Part shown: positions 53,664 to 62,140 of the stretch, one piece after another | Numbering within the stretch: position 1 is the stretch's first letter | How the letters are laid out: every line of letters starts with the position of its first letter | From: Ulva prolifera | Taxonomy: Eukaryota > Chlorophyta > Ulvophyceae > Ulvales > Ulvaceae | Reading direction: 5' to 3' | Assembly (NCBI GenBank): GCA_023078555.1 | Contig: CM041200.1 | Span: 6,797,361 to 6,861,360, forward strand | DNA length: 64,000 nt | Notes under the pieces: model-generated | The model's input: the letters and a program-made list of their open reading frames with translations, nothing else | Databases searched by the model: none | What the model was told of the DNA's origin: nothing | Made by a program: the position numbers and the translations under genes

Positions 53664-55079
53664 ATGAGCAAGTACGACGGACATGACATTGCCACGGTGC
53701 TGGCATACGTGATCACACTGCTGATCACCTATGGCACTCAAACTGGTTGGTTCGGCAAGACCAACGCAGACGTGCGGCCCTGCCTTGCCTGCCTGCCTCA
53801 CTGCGTGCCCCGACATGCGCGACCATGAAATGTCTCCAAAGAAGAAGTTTGCTATGTCCTCGTTCATCCTCGTTCATCTGTATCCTGTGGTTTGATTGGT
53901 GCGGGGCAGCAAGGGCGTGCCTGGAGGAGTTGAAAGTGTTCGACGATTGTTGTCACACGCACTCCGTCATCGCAGCCGAGTGCACCGACTCGTCAAATCA
54001 CAGCAAACACCACTATACTCATCGTGCATTTCACTGATATAACCGACTGCACAATCGTGGGCATCCACGCTGGCATTTGAACTGCGTTTGTCACTTGCAG
54101 ATCAGCGATCAGTACCAGACGCCCTTGACGCCAGCAGGCTTCACGTTCGCTATCTGGGGCATCATCTTCATCGGACAGGGAATCTCGGTCGCATATCTGA
54201 TGTACCGCCCAGATGAGGGGGTCCGTTCCGAGCCAACCTTCCCATTCGCAATCTCGCCCCATCTTGCGTTACCTCTGCTCGATCAGCAATAACTGTCTCA
54301 ACATGCACTTGTATGCTATCAAACTAACTGTACGGGTTAGAATTTGTCGCCGTGCGAGCCCATCAGACCCAGGAGCGCATGAGAGCTTCCCTGATGCGCG
54401 CTACATCGAACGTCGCCTGCGCGCGCAGCTGCGTCACTACAGCGACATCTCTCGATACCTGGCATCCACACTCACGCTCATGAAACCGTGCCGCATGCAG
54501 TCGACCAAGCAGAGCGTGGTCAAGTCCGTGTGCATCTGGTGGATCTTCGGCTGGGCAGCGGAGAGCCTGTGGCAGTACCTCTTCCAGCTGCAGTCAAAGG
54601 CCAGCCTCGTCGCCTGCGCGGTGGCCCTCCTCTCCGCCCTCTACGCCTTCGCCCACGCCTACCGCAACTCGCTCTCGCTCCGCCCGGCCATCACCGACTT
54701 CTCCCCCGACGCCCTCGCCAAGCACGTCATCGTCGGCAGCACGGCCATGAACGCCGCGTGGCTGTCTGTCGCCGCCTCTGTTGGAGTCCTCATCGCCGTC
54801 CTCGCAACCACCTCCATCCGCCTCATGCCGCTCGCCGTGGCCGCCGCTGTGACCGTCGCCGTCGTCGGCGCCGGAGTCGTGCTGCAGACGCAGGGCTGGG
54901 TGTACGGCATCACCCTCGTCTGGGCGTTCTACGGGGTGTCGGTCAAGCAGCACAGCCACCCGGTGGTGCAGAACGTCGCGTACGCCGCCATCGCCGTGCT
55001 CGGCCTGCTGAGCGCCTGGTCTGTGATGCAGCTCGCCCGCACCCGCTCCACAGGGGCCGCGTCGCCGCTGCTCGGGTAG
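53664..55079 (+). CDS. TspO/MBR-related multi-pass membrane protein, copy B
   Basis: Exons 53664-53771, 54101-54220 and 54501-55079, all phase 0 (268 aa); the same three-exon plan as copy A with splice sites at equivalent places. Helix 1 is VLAYVITLLITYGTQTGWF, followed by LTPAGFTFAIWGIIFIG (TPxGxxFxIWG motif). The large last exon holds the remaining helices, including WWIFGWAAESLWQYLF and WVYGITLVWAFYGVSVK, aligned with copy A. The two genes are clearly paralogues but diverged. A possible extra exon at about 54355-54480 was not needed to close the frame. Ligand and membrane are unknown; relatives sit in mitochondria, plastids or ER. Confidence 0.75.
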
Positions 55080-55875: not shown

Positions 55876-56683
55876 TCAATGGAAACCCATGAAGCGGTCT
55901 ACTGCCACAGAGAACCCAGCAAAGGATGCTGCTCCCATGGCCATCCCCATCGGGCCGCCTGCACGGCACAGATACTCAGCGTTCGCCCGCACCGACACAC
56001 GCCAGGCGGCCTCGTCACAGGATAACGAATGTGCCAGTGTCAGGAGTCCAGCAGATGTAGAGTTTGGTGCGCACTGCCTCGCGCCAGGAGGCCGCCCGTG
56101 ACGAAGCCCGTGTATAGTGAGTTGTACATGTCATGCTTGCCCCTGTGCGACTCGATGACGCACTCTATCCCAGCATACAGCATCCCTAGCGTCGCAAAAC
56201 TTCGTGCATACATGCTGCACACAACTTCACTCGGTTTGTGTAACGTCAGACGTTGCCACTGCTTGGCCCTGGGCGCCATATGTGAGGAAATCTGCAGAAA
56301 TGGCACCATCATGCCACACCATCATAGTAAGGATCGTACACGCTTCTTTCCTTGGTCATTCTATATGTGCTTCGCAGAACCTGCATCGTTGTCTTCGACG
56401 GCTGATCCGCCAAAGGAGCTGGGTTGCCCATGGCTGCTGGGTCCATGGCACCCATAAAAATACCAAACGCTATTCCCATCACACCCCCTGCTGCGCCCGA
56501 GATGAGTGATCTCACTACACAATTTTGGCTAGCATCATGCTGTGCTAGCTCTGTTGCTGTAATATTGGGCACAGCTTCGTAATGGAATCGGCTGGTGATA
56601 GATTGCCCAACGACATAGCCTTTGGGGGCAGGCTCTTCTGCGGCTTCGACGACCGGCGATGCTGCCTCAGCGTCGGCAGCCAT
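55876..56683 (-). CDS. TIM22: Mitochondrial import inner membrane translocase subunit TIM22
   Basis: Three minus-strand exons close in phase: 56683-56340, 56214-56078, 55958-55876 (187 aa). TIM22 is the channel that inserts carrier proteins into the mitochondrial inner membrane. The N-terminal 30 residues are acidic and Ala-rich. Helix 1 is Gly-rich (ISGAAGGVMGIAFGIFMGAM). Exon 2 has the family hallmark ARSFATLGMLYAGIECVIES, and exon 3 the last helix (GPMGMAMGAASFAGFSVAVD) and the stop. Frame requires intron 1 to use a GTACG donor and intron 2 a GC donor (CGAG|GCAGTG), so the latter is probably a GC-AG intron. The gene is divergent from the EF-hand gene at 57149; a damaged second copy lies at 58.5-58.8 kb. 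Confidence 0.9.
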
Positions 56684-57148: not shown

Positions 57149-58223
57149 ATGGACATCCAACAGGTGTGAGCCACACATTCTGTATCACATGCACGCATCG
57201 CTTGACACTAACACATGGAAAATTGCGTCCTGCTGAAGCCAAGGCCGTTGGCATTTTCGTGTTCAGAGCAGGCCATCGCCATTGGTCCGGGCGATTGCTG
57301 TCCTGAATTCATAGGGATACATGCAGTGGTTCAGGACCGTTGATAGGGATGGCAGTGGACAAATCGGCGCTACAGAGCTCCAGCAGGCGCTTGGGATGGG
57401 CAATTTGCACTTCTCACTCCAGGTGATCGCATCCATGATCAGGTGCGCACATGCAATCCGTTGCAAGGAAAGTTTTAGAATCATATGCAAATTTCTTTCT
57501 CTCAAGCGCAAAGTTGGCGTTGATTCTGGCTGCTTGCAGGATGTATGACAAGGACAGGAGCGGCAGCATCTCCTTCACCGAGTTCCAAGGCTTGGTACGG
57601 AAATCACTGGTCACCTGCATCCCTCCTCATGACATTATATTGCATCACACAGTATGTTATGTCATCTGTGTTGCCGCGTCTGCTGTGCTTCGTCTAGATT
57701 GGCTTCCGCTTGCTAATCGGTGTCAATGCTTCTGCAGCATCAATTTCTCATGGAAATGCACGCTTCATTCCAGCATTTTGATACAGACCGTTCTGGATCC
57801 TTAGAGAAAGGGGAAGTGTACAGAGCGCTACAGCATTCAGGTGTTCCTCCTCATGAATTGATTGACACCAACCCAGTGTGTGCACCGAACAAATGGCTGA
57901 AAACGAACCAGTTCCGTGCCTTTGGAGGACAGAGAATGCAATTCAGCAAGTTTGCGTGGCTATGACCTGACCTGGCTGGCTTTCGCAGTGCGGTGAGACC
58001 GCAACGTGGTGCAGGCTTCAACCTTGATGAGCACTCCTTTAACTCAGTCTTCTATGCATTTGACCCAGACAAGAGCCAAGGCATGAAACAAGTAGAATAC
58101 ATTGCGACTTGTGTGTTCCTGAGAAACACTGCAGCCATCTTCCAGGCGTTTGACACCTCGCGGCAAGGCCGGGTGTCTCTGGACTACAACCAGTTCGTCT
58201 ATGCAGCTGCCAACTGCAAGTGA
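57149..58223 (+). CDS. Penta-EF-hand calcium-binding protein, copy 1
   Basis: Five exons close in phase: 57149-57163 (only MDIQQ), 57327-57442, 57540-57594, 57738-57840, 58015-58223 (165 aa). The protein is essentially the penta-EF-hand domain of the ALG-2/PDCD6 and sorcin group, whose members bind Ca and dimerise through the fifth hand. EF1 (DRDGSGQIGATE), EF2 (DKDRSGSISFTE) and EF3 (DTDRSGSLEKGE) have full Ca-binding loops. EF4 (DPDKSQGMKQVE) lacks the central Gly and EF5 (DTSRQGRVSLDY) lacks the final acidic residue, so these two probably bind Ca poorly. The Gly/Pro-rich N-terminal tail usual in the family is missing. Copy 2 at 60022 has identical exon lengths. Confidence 0.9.
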
Positions 58224-58301
58224 TCTGCAATCCATGCAACCTGCAATCGAATCACTGGTCTTCGTGCCAATTTCTACTAGGCATCCACTGCAACCGCATG
58301 T

Positions 58302-58371
58302 AGAACAGCGCCTGGCGGATGGCAGAGTACATTGCAGCGTGTGTCTTTGTGAGGCAGAGCTGGCAGGATTT
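58302..58371 (+). pseudogene. Decayed alternative terminal exon of EF-hand gene 1
   Basis: About 70 bp clearly similar to the middle of the second terminal exon of EF-hand gene 2 (61165-61373). Homologous stretches include CTGGCGGATGGC and GCAGCGTGTGTCTT. The rest of the exon is not recognisable and the frame is not kept. It lies about 80 bp after the stop of copy 1, the position expected if the ancestral gene already had two terminal exons. Confidence 0.7.
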
Positions 58372-58474: not shown

Positions 58475-58805
58475 ATAATACACGCTCCTTCCCATGGTCG
58501 TCCGACAAGAAGTTAGCACTGCTGTGTCACATGCGGGTGATGATGCGGGTACTGCCAACTTGGCTGTATCCGCAGCATCATCTGTGACAGCTGATCTGCC
58601 GCGGCATGCCGATGGAGCCTGGTTGCTCCTGGCCATTGAATCCATGGCACCCTTAAACACACCATACATTGCCCCATCATGCCGCTGAGGTAAGCGACTG
58701 CATGATTCTGGCTGCCATCATCCTGTGTTAGCTCGAGCTCTGCTGCTGTTACGCTGGGCATACTCTTCAAAGCGACATCCTCCAACATTGTGATCGGCGA
58801 CCTTC
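58475..58805 (-). pseudogene. TIM22 pseudogene, exon 1 only
   Basis: Minus-strand sequence aligns with exon 1 of the intact TIM22 gene: SMPSVTAAELELTQDDGSQN against AVPNITATELAQHDASQN, then in a shifted frame MYGVFKGAMDSMARSNQAP against IAFGIFMGAMDPAAMGNPAP, and lastly RSVYYP against RSVYDP. There is a frameshift within the first membrane helix, the helix is disrupted, and exons 2 and 3 are absent. It lies divergent from EF-hand gene 2, mirroring the intact pair, so it came from a segmental duplication and not from a processed transcript. Confidence 0.82.
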
Positions 58806-60021: not shown

Positions 60022-61157
60022 ATGGACATTCGGGAGGTGTGAGCTTCACGCGCCACATCAGCTCAGCGCCCTGCTTGGAACCAGAAAATGCCGCATCATA
60101 TTCTGAGACTACATTCAAATTTATGAGGCACGCATCGTGTCGCGTCGAGTAGAATCACGGACATTGGCAGTTGCGTAACCTGCGCAGGTCATCGCCGGTT
60201 GTCCGGTGCGCCGTTGCTTCATCCTGAAACGCGCGCTGCACTAAAGTGTGTCGTGGTACATGTAGTGGTTCAGGATCGTTGATAGGGATGGCAGCGGACA
60301 AATTGACGCTACCGAGCTCCAGCAGGCTCTGGGGATGGGCAATCTGCACTTCTCACTTCAGGTGGTCGCGTCCATGATCAGGTGCGCGGATACGATAAGC
60401 AAGCATGAGATGCCCTCTAGCACTCTGCAATATAACGCCTTTTGTCACAAGAGCAGAGTCGCGATTATGTCTGGTCGCCTGCAGGATGTACGACAAAGAC
60501 AGGAATGGCAACATATCTTTCCCCGAGTTCCAAGGCTTGGTACGGACCCAAACTATTGATCAGCTGCATCGCTGCAGCTTTCATCACGATGTCAAACCCA
60601 CGTACATCTGCATCGAAACTGGCTCCATTCAGATTCTGGTTTCCTTGTTAACCGCTGTCAGTGCTGCTGCAGCATCAATTTCTAATGGACATGCACGCTT
60701 CATTCCATCAATTTGACACAGACCGTTCTGGTGCTCTAGAGAAAGGAGAAGTGCACCGAGCTCTGCAGCAGTCGGGTGCGGCCCCCCAGGCATTGTTCAG
60801 CACTCTGAGTTGTCTGAACTGAGCGCATCGTCAGAAACAAATCAAGAATGTGCGTGTGGGGGAAGGAAAGTACAGTCGAGCAATCGCACGTCGCTATGAC
60901 CTGGCCTGGCTGGCTTTCGCAGTGCGGTGAGGCCGCAACGTGGTGCAGGCTTCAACCTTGATGAGCACGCCTTTAACTCGGTCTTCACCGCATTTGACCC
61001 AGACCGGAGCCAAAGCATGAAACAACCCGAATACATTGCGACTTGCGTGTTCCTGAGAAACACTGCAGCCATCTTCCAGGCGTTTGACACCTCGCGGCAA
61101 GGCCGGGTGTCTCTGGACTACAACCAGTTCGTCTATGCAGCATCCAACTGCAAGTGA
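60022..61157 (+). CDS. Penta-EF-hand calcium-binding protein, copy 2
   Basis: Five exons with the same lengths as copy 1 (15, 116, 55, 103, 209 nt): 60022-60036, 60266-60381, 60485-60539, 60673-60775, 60949-61157 (165 aa). EF1 (DRDGSGQIDATE), EF2 (DKDRNGNISFPE) and EF3 (DTDRSGALEKGE) are complete. EF4 (DPDRSQSMKQPE) and EF5 (DTSRQGRVSLDY) are degenerate as in copy 1. No stop or frameshift is seen, so both copies look functional. Immediately downstream is a second homologous terminal exon (61165-61373) in the same phase. The exon 2 acceptor is TAG in this copy (CAG in copy 1). Confidence 0.9.
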
Positions 61158-61164
61158 TCTGCAG

Positions 61165-61373
61165 GTTTCCGGCTGGACCAGCATGCCTTCGAAGCACTGT
61201 TCCGGGCGTACAATCCCATGCAAAACGGCTCCTGGCAGATGGCCGAATACATCGCAGCATGTGTCTTCCTGAAGCAGACATCACTGATGTTCACAGCATT
61301 TGACACTCACCAACAGGGGCGAGTGTCTCTGGACTACAACCAATTTGTGTATGCAACGTCCAACTGCCGATAA
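61165..61373 (+). CDS. Alternative terminal exon of EF-hand gene 2
   Basis: A 209-nt stretch, exactly the length and phase of exon 5 (60949-61157), preceded by CTGCAG seven bases after the exon 5 stop. It encodes a homologous C-terminal half (GFRLDQHAFEALFRAYNP ... NQFVYATSNCR) ending in TAA. Joined to exon 4 it would replace EF4 and EF5. Its EF4 loop (NPMQNGSWQMAE) is also degenerate and its EF5 (DTHQQGRVSLDY) resembles the other exon. The two exons each end in a stop, so they would be mutually exclusive. Its intact frame against the decay of the matching exon in copy 1 suggests it is in use. Confidence 0.7.
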
Positions 61374-62140
61374 ATAGAGGTGGTGACGGTCAAGTAGAAG
61401 TGACCTGGACTCGTGCGTCTGTTGTTAGTAGTGCGTTGGGTAAGCATGTTGTGTGAATCGAATGGCAGATGTTGAATCATGGCGTGCTGCGTCAACAAAG
61501 GCCATTTCATGCGATCGGGTGTAGAGGTGCACGAAACCGACCGCAATTGCGTTAAGTATACTGCACTGTGGTGTGGCGTTCAACTTTGTAACAATTTTTG
61601 TACCAATGGCGTCTTGTCAGTTCAGGTGTGCATTGCCTGGCGTGATACTGCCAGTGTTTCACCTCGGCACTGTGTGCAGCATCATGTACGTTCTGGCTTC
61701 GTCGTTGCAGCTGCTTCTGGCCGAGGTGGTAAACGTCCGCCAATACGGAAGTTGTGGTCTCATGCATATGTGTGGGTGTGTGTATGACACCCCGATCTGG
61801 CTGCCTCAGATAAAGTTCGTGCTGCTCTATTTGACGCAACCGCTCTGTGCCTTGCACCCACTTCACACATGTGACGAACAGGCCAAACATGGGAACCCTC
61901 ACACTGGAATCCAAGCTTACATGCACGACCTCCAGTGTGGCGAGCCTACCACCGCAGTCGGCTGGGGCTGGTACCCTTGCACATGGCCACAGCACCAGAT
62001 GCCCAGCTACCGCAGCCACTGCAGCGCCAATGATTCAAGGCACCACTGCCCCCCGCTAGTGCACTCGCGCAGGCCCCACTGACATCGCACACAATCGCTT
62101 CGTGGCTAGCAGCACCGGCGCCGCAGCAGCCACAGTGGCG
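61374..62140. other. Intergenic between convergent genes
   Basis: Between the EF-hand gene 2 terminus and the 3' end of the glutamyl-tRNA synthetase gene. No gene is supported. Confidence 0.4.

Follow-up and report, generated by a model that had tools for sequence, protein, structure and literature searches.

The window, i.e., the whole 64,000-nt stretch of the Ulva prolifera genome that was analysed, carries two tandem penta-EF-hand (PEF) genes on its plus strand, gene U (57149-58223) and gene D (60022-61373). The 88.9 Mb genome has the marks of a photosynthetic eukaryote, with 38 matches at exon level to the chlorophyll a/b-binding family and introns of the spliceosomal type. Gene D begins with a short start exon that encodes MDIRE (exon 1, 60022-60036) and was placed by its frame and splice sites; in this model the presumed start codon lies directly 5' of EF1. 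Exon 2 (60266-60381) encodes EF1, recognised by Pfam as an EF-hand, exon 3 (60485-60539) encodes EF2 and exon 4 (60673-60775) EF3, and the gene closes with a terminal region in which the EF4-EF5 segment is present in two copies. The first copy, terminal segment 5a (60949-61157, EF4a-EF5a), ends in TGA, and the second, 5b (61165-61373, EF4b-EF5b), in TAA, as read directly and by script. Each copy is 209 nt long, and the 7-nt spacer tctgcag between them (61158-61164) contains the 5b acceptor.

The donor of exon 4 (TCGG/gtgcgg, 60775/60776) is in phase 1, and both segments are entered in phase 1 after TGCAG, the junctions reading ggtgcag/GC for 5a and atctgcag/GT for 5b. Intron 4 measures 173 nt in its short form (60776-60948), and a long form would end at 61164 and measure 389 nt; joining the donor to 5a or to 5b yields an intact 165-residue frame in either case. 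A sequence-only reading of the region had described 5a and 5b as homologous segments of equal length, entered in the same phase through GCAG acceptors and ending in stops of their own, and this description is exact to the base. A repeat finder returned a 125-nt core with 73% identity at a spacing of 216 nt. The copies differ, in register, at 79 of the 204 coding bases compared, which rules out an assembly artefact as their source, and the two peptides are identical at 42 of 69 residues.

Family assignment and genomic surroundings

Judged from its sequence, the product of gene D is an ALG-2/sorcin-type PEF protein, in which 5a and 5b both correspond to the EF4-EF5 segment. Pfam detects EF-hand pairs in the predicted isoforms a and b (ending in 5a and 5b, respectively), and both align with solved PEF proteins, the alignments covering residues 1-154 of 160 for 1y1x and 2-153 for 3aak. 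Among the matches listed, the best solved structure is that of the Leishmania PDCD6 homolog, followed by ALG-2. Thirty PEF-type chains occur in both solved-structure tables (the best 60 of 275 and the best 60 of 271 matches); they represent few distinct molecules and are not independent, and 26 of them favour 5b over 5a in score, for instance ALG-2 3aak (95.6 vs. 89.7 bits), sorcin 5mra (84.5 vs. 80.9 bits) and Leishmania 1y1x (109.4 vs. 107.9 bits), and 4phj, 1kfu, 4okh and 7x79 score slightly lower.

A search of the whole genome with the 5b peptide (E up to 10) scored five places, 5b itself included. The other four are 5a (E 2.8e-24), exon 5 of gene U (8.2e-23), a third PEF gene (1.3e-8) and a relic in gene U (6.4e-4). 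The third PEF gene (L026; G000:C1:1235800-1238800, minus strand) has a single terminal exon and an intron 4 in the corresponding position, and is devoid of an intron between EF2 and EF3. Locus L027, which a search of viral contigs had brought up with 63% identity over 19 residues, was discarded as a chance match; apart from the string DYNQFVYA, a translated search of its 10,057 bases gave no PEF exon, and the long open frames of this locus, which are on the other strand, resemble phage genes by eye. A search of genome contigs for loci of related species returned none.

The surroundings of the two genes contain further paralogous pairs, at 48763-48846/54096-54179 (71%) and 47265-47330/52003-52068 (74%), and by sequence similarity the region is rich in old duplications. 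Beside gene U, a gene on the minus strand shows weak similarity to Tim17/Tim22 at 56409-56468 (E 0.0098, under the Pfam cut-off), and a 60-nt stretch beside gene D (58608-58667) is 75% identical to this interval; the duplicated U/D block may have included the Tim17/Tim22-like neighbour. For the gene at approximately 53664-55079, two peptides compared with Pfam at E up to 1 matched no family.

One terminal exon with two 3' splice sites

Just 7 nt separate 5a from 5b, with neither a donor at the end of 5a nor room for polyadenylation, and hence 5b is necessarily part of the 3' UTR of any 5a mRNA. Segments 5a and 5b make up a single compound terminal exon, whose two 3' splice sites are spaced by 216 nt, and are not true alternative last exons, for which separate poly(A) sites would be required; mutual exclusion of the two can hold only for the protein, by way of the 5a stop. 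The initial designation of the pair as alternative last exons made by exon duplication is thus imprecise in its first part, given the 7-nt gap, whereas its second part stands: an exon duplication with two endings, both of which look maintained, is supported by the selection on 5b, the top-ranked acceptor and the PEF homology. Downstream, at 61587-61591, the motif TGTAA, which green algae use as a poly(A) signal, provides a possible signal shared by both endings.

We consider it fairly probable that gene D uses this compound exon through competing acceptors to make two isoforms, and that the underlying duplication is older than that of the genes. According to this proposal, the EF4-EF5 segment would have been duplicated in tandem ahead of the U/D gene duplication, and the copies would now form one terminal exon in which the 3' splice sites at 60948 and 61164 compete. 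Splicing from 60775 to 60949 would give isoform a, whose stop would leave 5b as 3' UTR; splicing from 60775 to 61165 would remove 5a and give isoform b, if 61164 is used at present. EF1-EF3 would be common to both isoforms.

The two acceptors were compared by means of a 21-base model derived from 19 CCT chaperonin introns of the same genome, PEF introns being kept out of the training set. Twenty-two CCT intron candidates had been collected, of which three doubtful ones (indices 3, 20 and 21) were dropped before counting. The model is small and takes no account of branch points, and the CCT intron boundaries are the best fit to a profile made from exon hits of the same genes, so that some may be wrong; 14 of the 19 introns end in TGCAG. 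Among the 37 AGs in 60801-61420, the one at 61164 ranks first (9.9 bits) and that at 60948 second (9.6 bits), and scores as high as theirs are reached by 0.75% (61164) and 0.97% (60948) of the 7848 AGs that the two strands of the window contain. The next-ranked AGs, at 61079 (8.5 bits) and 61140 (8.3 bits), are fair ones inside 5a and would compete. The first good AG 3' of the branch point is usually favoured, and 60948, 61079 and 61140 all lie upstream of 61164, which counts against the use of the latter. The training introns range from 73 to 338 nt, and the 389-nt long form of intron 4 would somewhat exceed all of them.

A further AG, preceded by pyrimidines, is located at 60922 (gctttcgcag/TGCGGTGAGG), 26 nt upstream of the 5a acceptor; it scores low (1.6 bits), and splicing at this position would bring a stop shortly past EF3. 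RNA structure was considered as a selector between 5a and 5b and set aside, the predicted fold of 60776-61180 being barely better than that of shuffled sequences (z -1.75, 6/100 shuffles as good).

The second segment could also be reached by translation. The open frame runs through the TGA of 5a into 5b (216 nt, i.e., 72 codons), and ribosomes that occasionally pass this stop would make a longer protein with seven EF-hands. However, a continuous frame arises by chance in one case out of three, readthrough has no need of the good acceptor that 5b has retained, and UGA UCU is not known to be a leaky stop context; we regard this route as very improbable.

The paralog gene U and the constraint on segment 5b

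Gene U, the tandem paralog, has exons at 57149-57163, 57327-57442, 57540-57594, 57738-57840 and 58015-58223, the last of which is of the 5a type. It is followed on the same strand by a decayed 5b (58230-58360) with a lost acceptor (ctgcaA), a TAG at 58301-58303 and several indels, in which the EF5 half is not recognisable. The interval 58291-58358 matches 5b of gene D at 54 of 68 bases, and matches 5a only over about 30 bases. The presence of this relic implies that 5a and 5b already formed a pair before U and D were duplicated, and that 5b was lost from U. The death of 5b in U also counts against the proposed use of two endings, as it means that the arrangement is dispensable in one gene copy. 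The relic affords a natural before-and-after comparison.

The similarity of U and D is uneven. Exons 1-4 have diverged to a dS of 0.57 and the introns are 55-68% identical, and dS in 5a is 0.15. A candidate gene-conversion tract extends over 57964-58229 (plus strand), where blocks of 24 nt are identical at 20-24 positions with 60898-61163 of gene D; the five intron-4 blocks before it are identical at 11-16 of 24 positions. A recent gene conversion between U and D, reaching from the last part of intron 4 through the whole of 5a to the 5a/5b border, is therefore probable from the alignment, and the tract stops at this border, where homology ceases. Strong constraint on the splicing signals of intron 4 and 5a would also lower the divergence in this interval. 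A recent arrival of 5a in both genes, on the other hand, is ruled out by the saturated divergence between 5a and 5b together with the 5b relic in U.

In a one-ratio tree, the changes since this probable conversion fall on 5a of U (0.77 vs. 0.002 per codon for D, the latter at the lower bound). This estimate bears on the suggestion that the two genes divide the labour, gene D mostly skipping 5a and specialising in ending b while gene U supplies ending a. Such a division is in keeping with U having only 5a in working order and D retaining 5b, and would explain how U could lose its 5b, but 5a of gene D is essentially unchanged since the ancestor that it shares with 5a of U, has a strong acceptor and is not decaying. 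We consider the division improbable.

The differences between 5a and 5b are distributed over codon positions 1, 2 and 3 as 22, 16 and 41 (41/79 at the third). The pairwise omega is 0.038, with dS saturated and at the fit bound, and omega = 1 is rejected (LRT 35.3). In a tree of four sequences, with the third PEF gene (L026, region C1:1236810) as outgroup, omega = 1 over the whole 5b branch is rejected (LRT 11.5, p = 7e-4), as it is on the stem to 5a (LRT 11.5); these branch estimates rest on 68 codons, a distant outgroup and the saturated 5a-5b dS. Adding a neutral tail to the 5b branch costs 0.9, 1.9 and 2.9 units of lnL at 0.05, 0.10 and 0.15 substitutions per site, respectively, and 4.0 and 6.0 units at 0.20 and 0.285. 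For comparison, exons 2-4 give a D branch of approximately 0.20 per site after the U/D split (0.592/3), and 0.285 is half of the pairwise 0.57. The fits indicate that coding constraint acted on 5b during part of the time since the U/D split, and they are compatible with a neutral period of up to about 0.1 substitutions per site, i.e., about half of the D branch. Exons 2-4 of gene D are constrained as well, a neutral tail of 0.05 costing 1.9 lnL; for exons 2-4 of gene U, a tail of 0.05 is free of cost, against 3.7 lnL for one of 0.10. When neutral copies were simulated at 0.20 substitutions per site, with substitutions only, the frame was kept in 26% and the frame together with the AG in 17%, and by these figures the intact 5b frame alone is weak evidence. 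By the tree fits, 5b looks maintained.

An alternative is that 5b is a recently dead relic, i.e., a formerly working ending that is now only the 3' UTR of the 5a mRNA. This fate is evident in gene U, 5a lies upstream of 5b behind an equally good acceptor, and the data tolerate up to about 0.1 neutral substitutions per site at the end of the 5b branch. However, neutral drift of 5b over the full length of the D branch after the U/D split is penalised by 4 lnL, 5b has kept its frame and a TGCAG acceptor that is the best of 37 AGs, and its scores against solved PEF proteins are on the whole not reduced (26/30 higher). We hold a dead 5b to be rather unlikely, and retain two competing acceptors and two isoforms as our reading of gene D.

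Predicted effect of ending b and known systems

The sequence-only reading had suggested that splicing could switch the choice of partner, the endings differing in EF4 and in EF5, the dimerisation hand. The EF5 segment is present in both copies with a predicted role in dimerisation, but it is the more conserved part of the pair (23/32 identical residues in the last 32, against 19/37 before it), and the suggestion, as far as it rests on EF5, is accordingly weak. As compared at the level of sequence, the sharper differences between a and b are the residue at the entry from EF3 to EF4 and the EF4 loop. The loop in 5a, DPDRSQSMKQPE, offers oxygen ligands at positions 1, 3, 5 and 12, and that in 5b, NPMQNGSWQMAE, has an acidic residue at neither position 1 nor position 3; following the general EF-hand rule, we take these positions to be the Ca2+ ligands. 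In the alignment to 3aak, GYRL of ALG-2 faces GFNL in 5a and GFRL in 5b, which places an Arg at the position of ALG-2 R125 in 5b, and not in 5a, where it is Asn. The equivalent residue is Ser in the third PEF gene and Gln in the Leishmania protein, and Arg is thus not required across the PEF family.

Compared with isoform a, isoform b would have Arg in place of Asn at the R125 position and an EF4 loop that lacks acidic residues at the ligand positions 1 and 3. By analogy with ALG-2, the choice between a and b would be expected to alter the Ca2+ response and the opening of the target pocket more than EF5 dimerisation and the choice of dimer partner; the present use of 61164, its regulation and this functional effect are inferred.

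A narrow full-text search for tandem exon duplication and alternative splicing in green algae found no report, which is weak evidence of absence. Searches for PEF proteins in green algae, judged by titles and the beginnings of abstracts, for a PEF protein in Chlamydomonas or an ALG-2 homolog, and, in outline, for alternative splicing in Chlamydomonas gave nothing on the subject.

The swapping of exon duplicates is well described in animals. Tandem duplicated substitution exons are as a rule separated by introns with splice signals of their own. In gene D, homologous segments are neighbours in one gene and share their phase, as in such substitutions, but the anatomy does not provide for one copy per transcript, since the 5a RNA includes 5b. 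Gene D would thus work like a tandem duplicated exon substitution and is not a strict member of the class, the use of 5b being presumed. In humans, 77 of 236 such events are C-terminal, and the exon swap in ACTN1/ACTN4 touches EF-hand residues, with one version only keeping Ca2+ binding (PMC9741552). Gene D resembles ACTN1/ACTN4 in that tandem-duplicated homologous segments are, here putatively, swapped by splicing; the difference is that its copies are 7 nt apart and that splicing would select one of the 3' splice sites of a single terminal exon. Should ending b be used, gene D would show exon swapping in a minimal form, an additional acceptor plus a stop codon doing what otherwise takes a pair of exons.

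Drosophila pip and PGRP-LC likewise have tandem duplicated terminal exons and select between 3' splice sites; for these genes, competing RNA structures have been reported (PMC9013439), in contrast to the unremarkable fold of 60776-61180 in gene D. Exons 4a/4b of OGDH are a homologous pair that sets Ca2+ sensitivity (PMC7969005). That pair is internal, and its intervening intron has branch points near its donor, whereas the copies in gene D have no intron between them.

The closest parallel in terms of protein family is PDCD6 (ALG-2) itself. When EF3 of ALG-2 binds Ca2+, R125 moves and Pocket 1 becomes open to ALIX, and the loss of Gly-Phe in ALG-2 deltaGF122 abolishes ALIX binding with retention of dimerisation (PMC2927601, PMC5037681). 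The published boundary at the end of human PDCD6 exon 4 reads TCAGGTTTCG/gt, and an alternative donor lies 6 nt upstream of it (PMC2927601). As we read this boundary, human PDCD6 intron 4 interrupts the Gly codon ahead of Tyr124-Arg125 in phase 1, at the position that intron 4 occupies in gene D, before Phe-Arg or Phe-Asn. In PDCD6, splicing at this equivalent intron bears on R125 and target binding, as it would in gene D. In human and mouse PDCD6, the choice is between two donors 6 nt apart and Gly-Phe is lost, whereas in gene D the acceptor side would pick whole EF4-EF5 modules. We put forward tentatively, as possible though on the unlikely side, that the switch between two EF4-EF5 modules toggles an ALG-2-type arginine switch together with Ca2+ ligation by EF4, at the intron of the mammalian ALG-2 splice event that changes the choice of target, and that one paralog later shed its second module. 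If ending b is used, gene D would be a second case in which splicing at this PEF intron bears on a Ca2+-gated target pocket.
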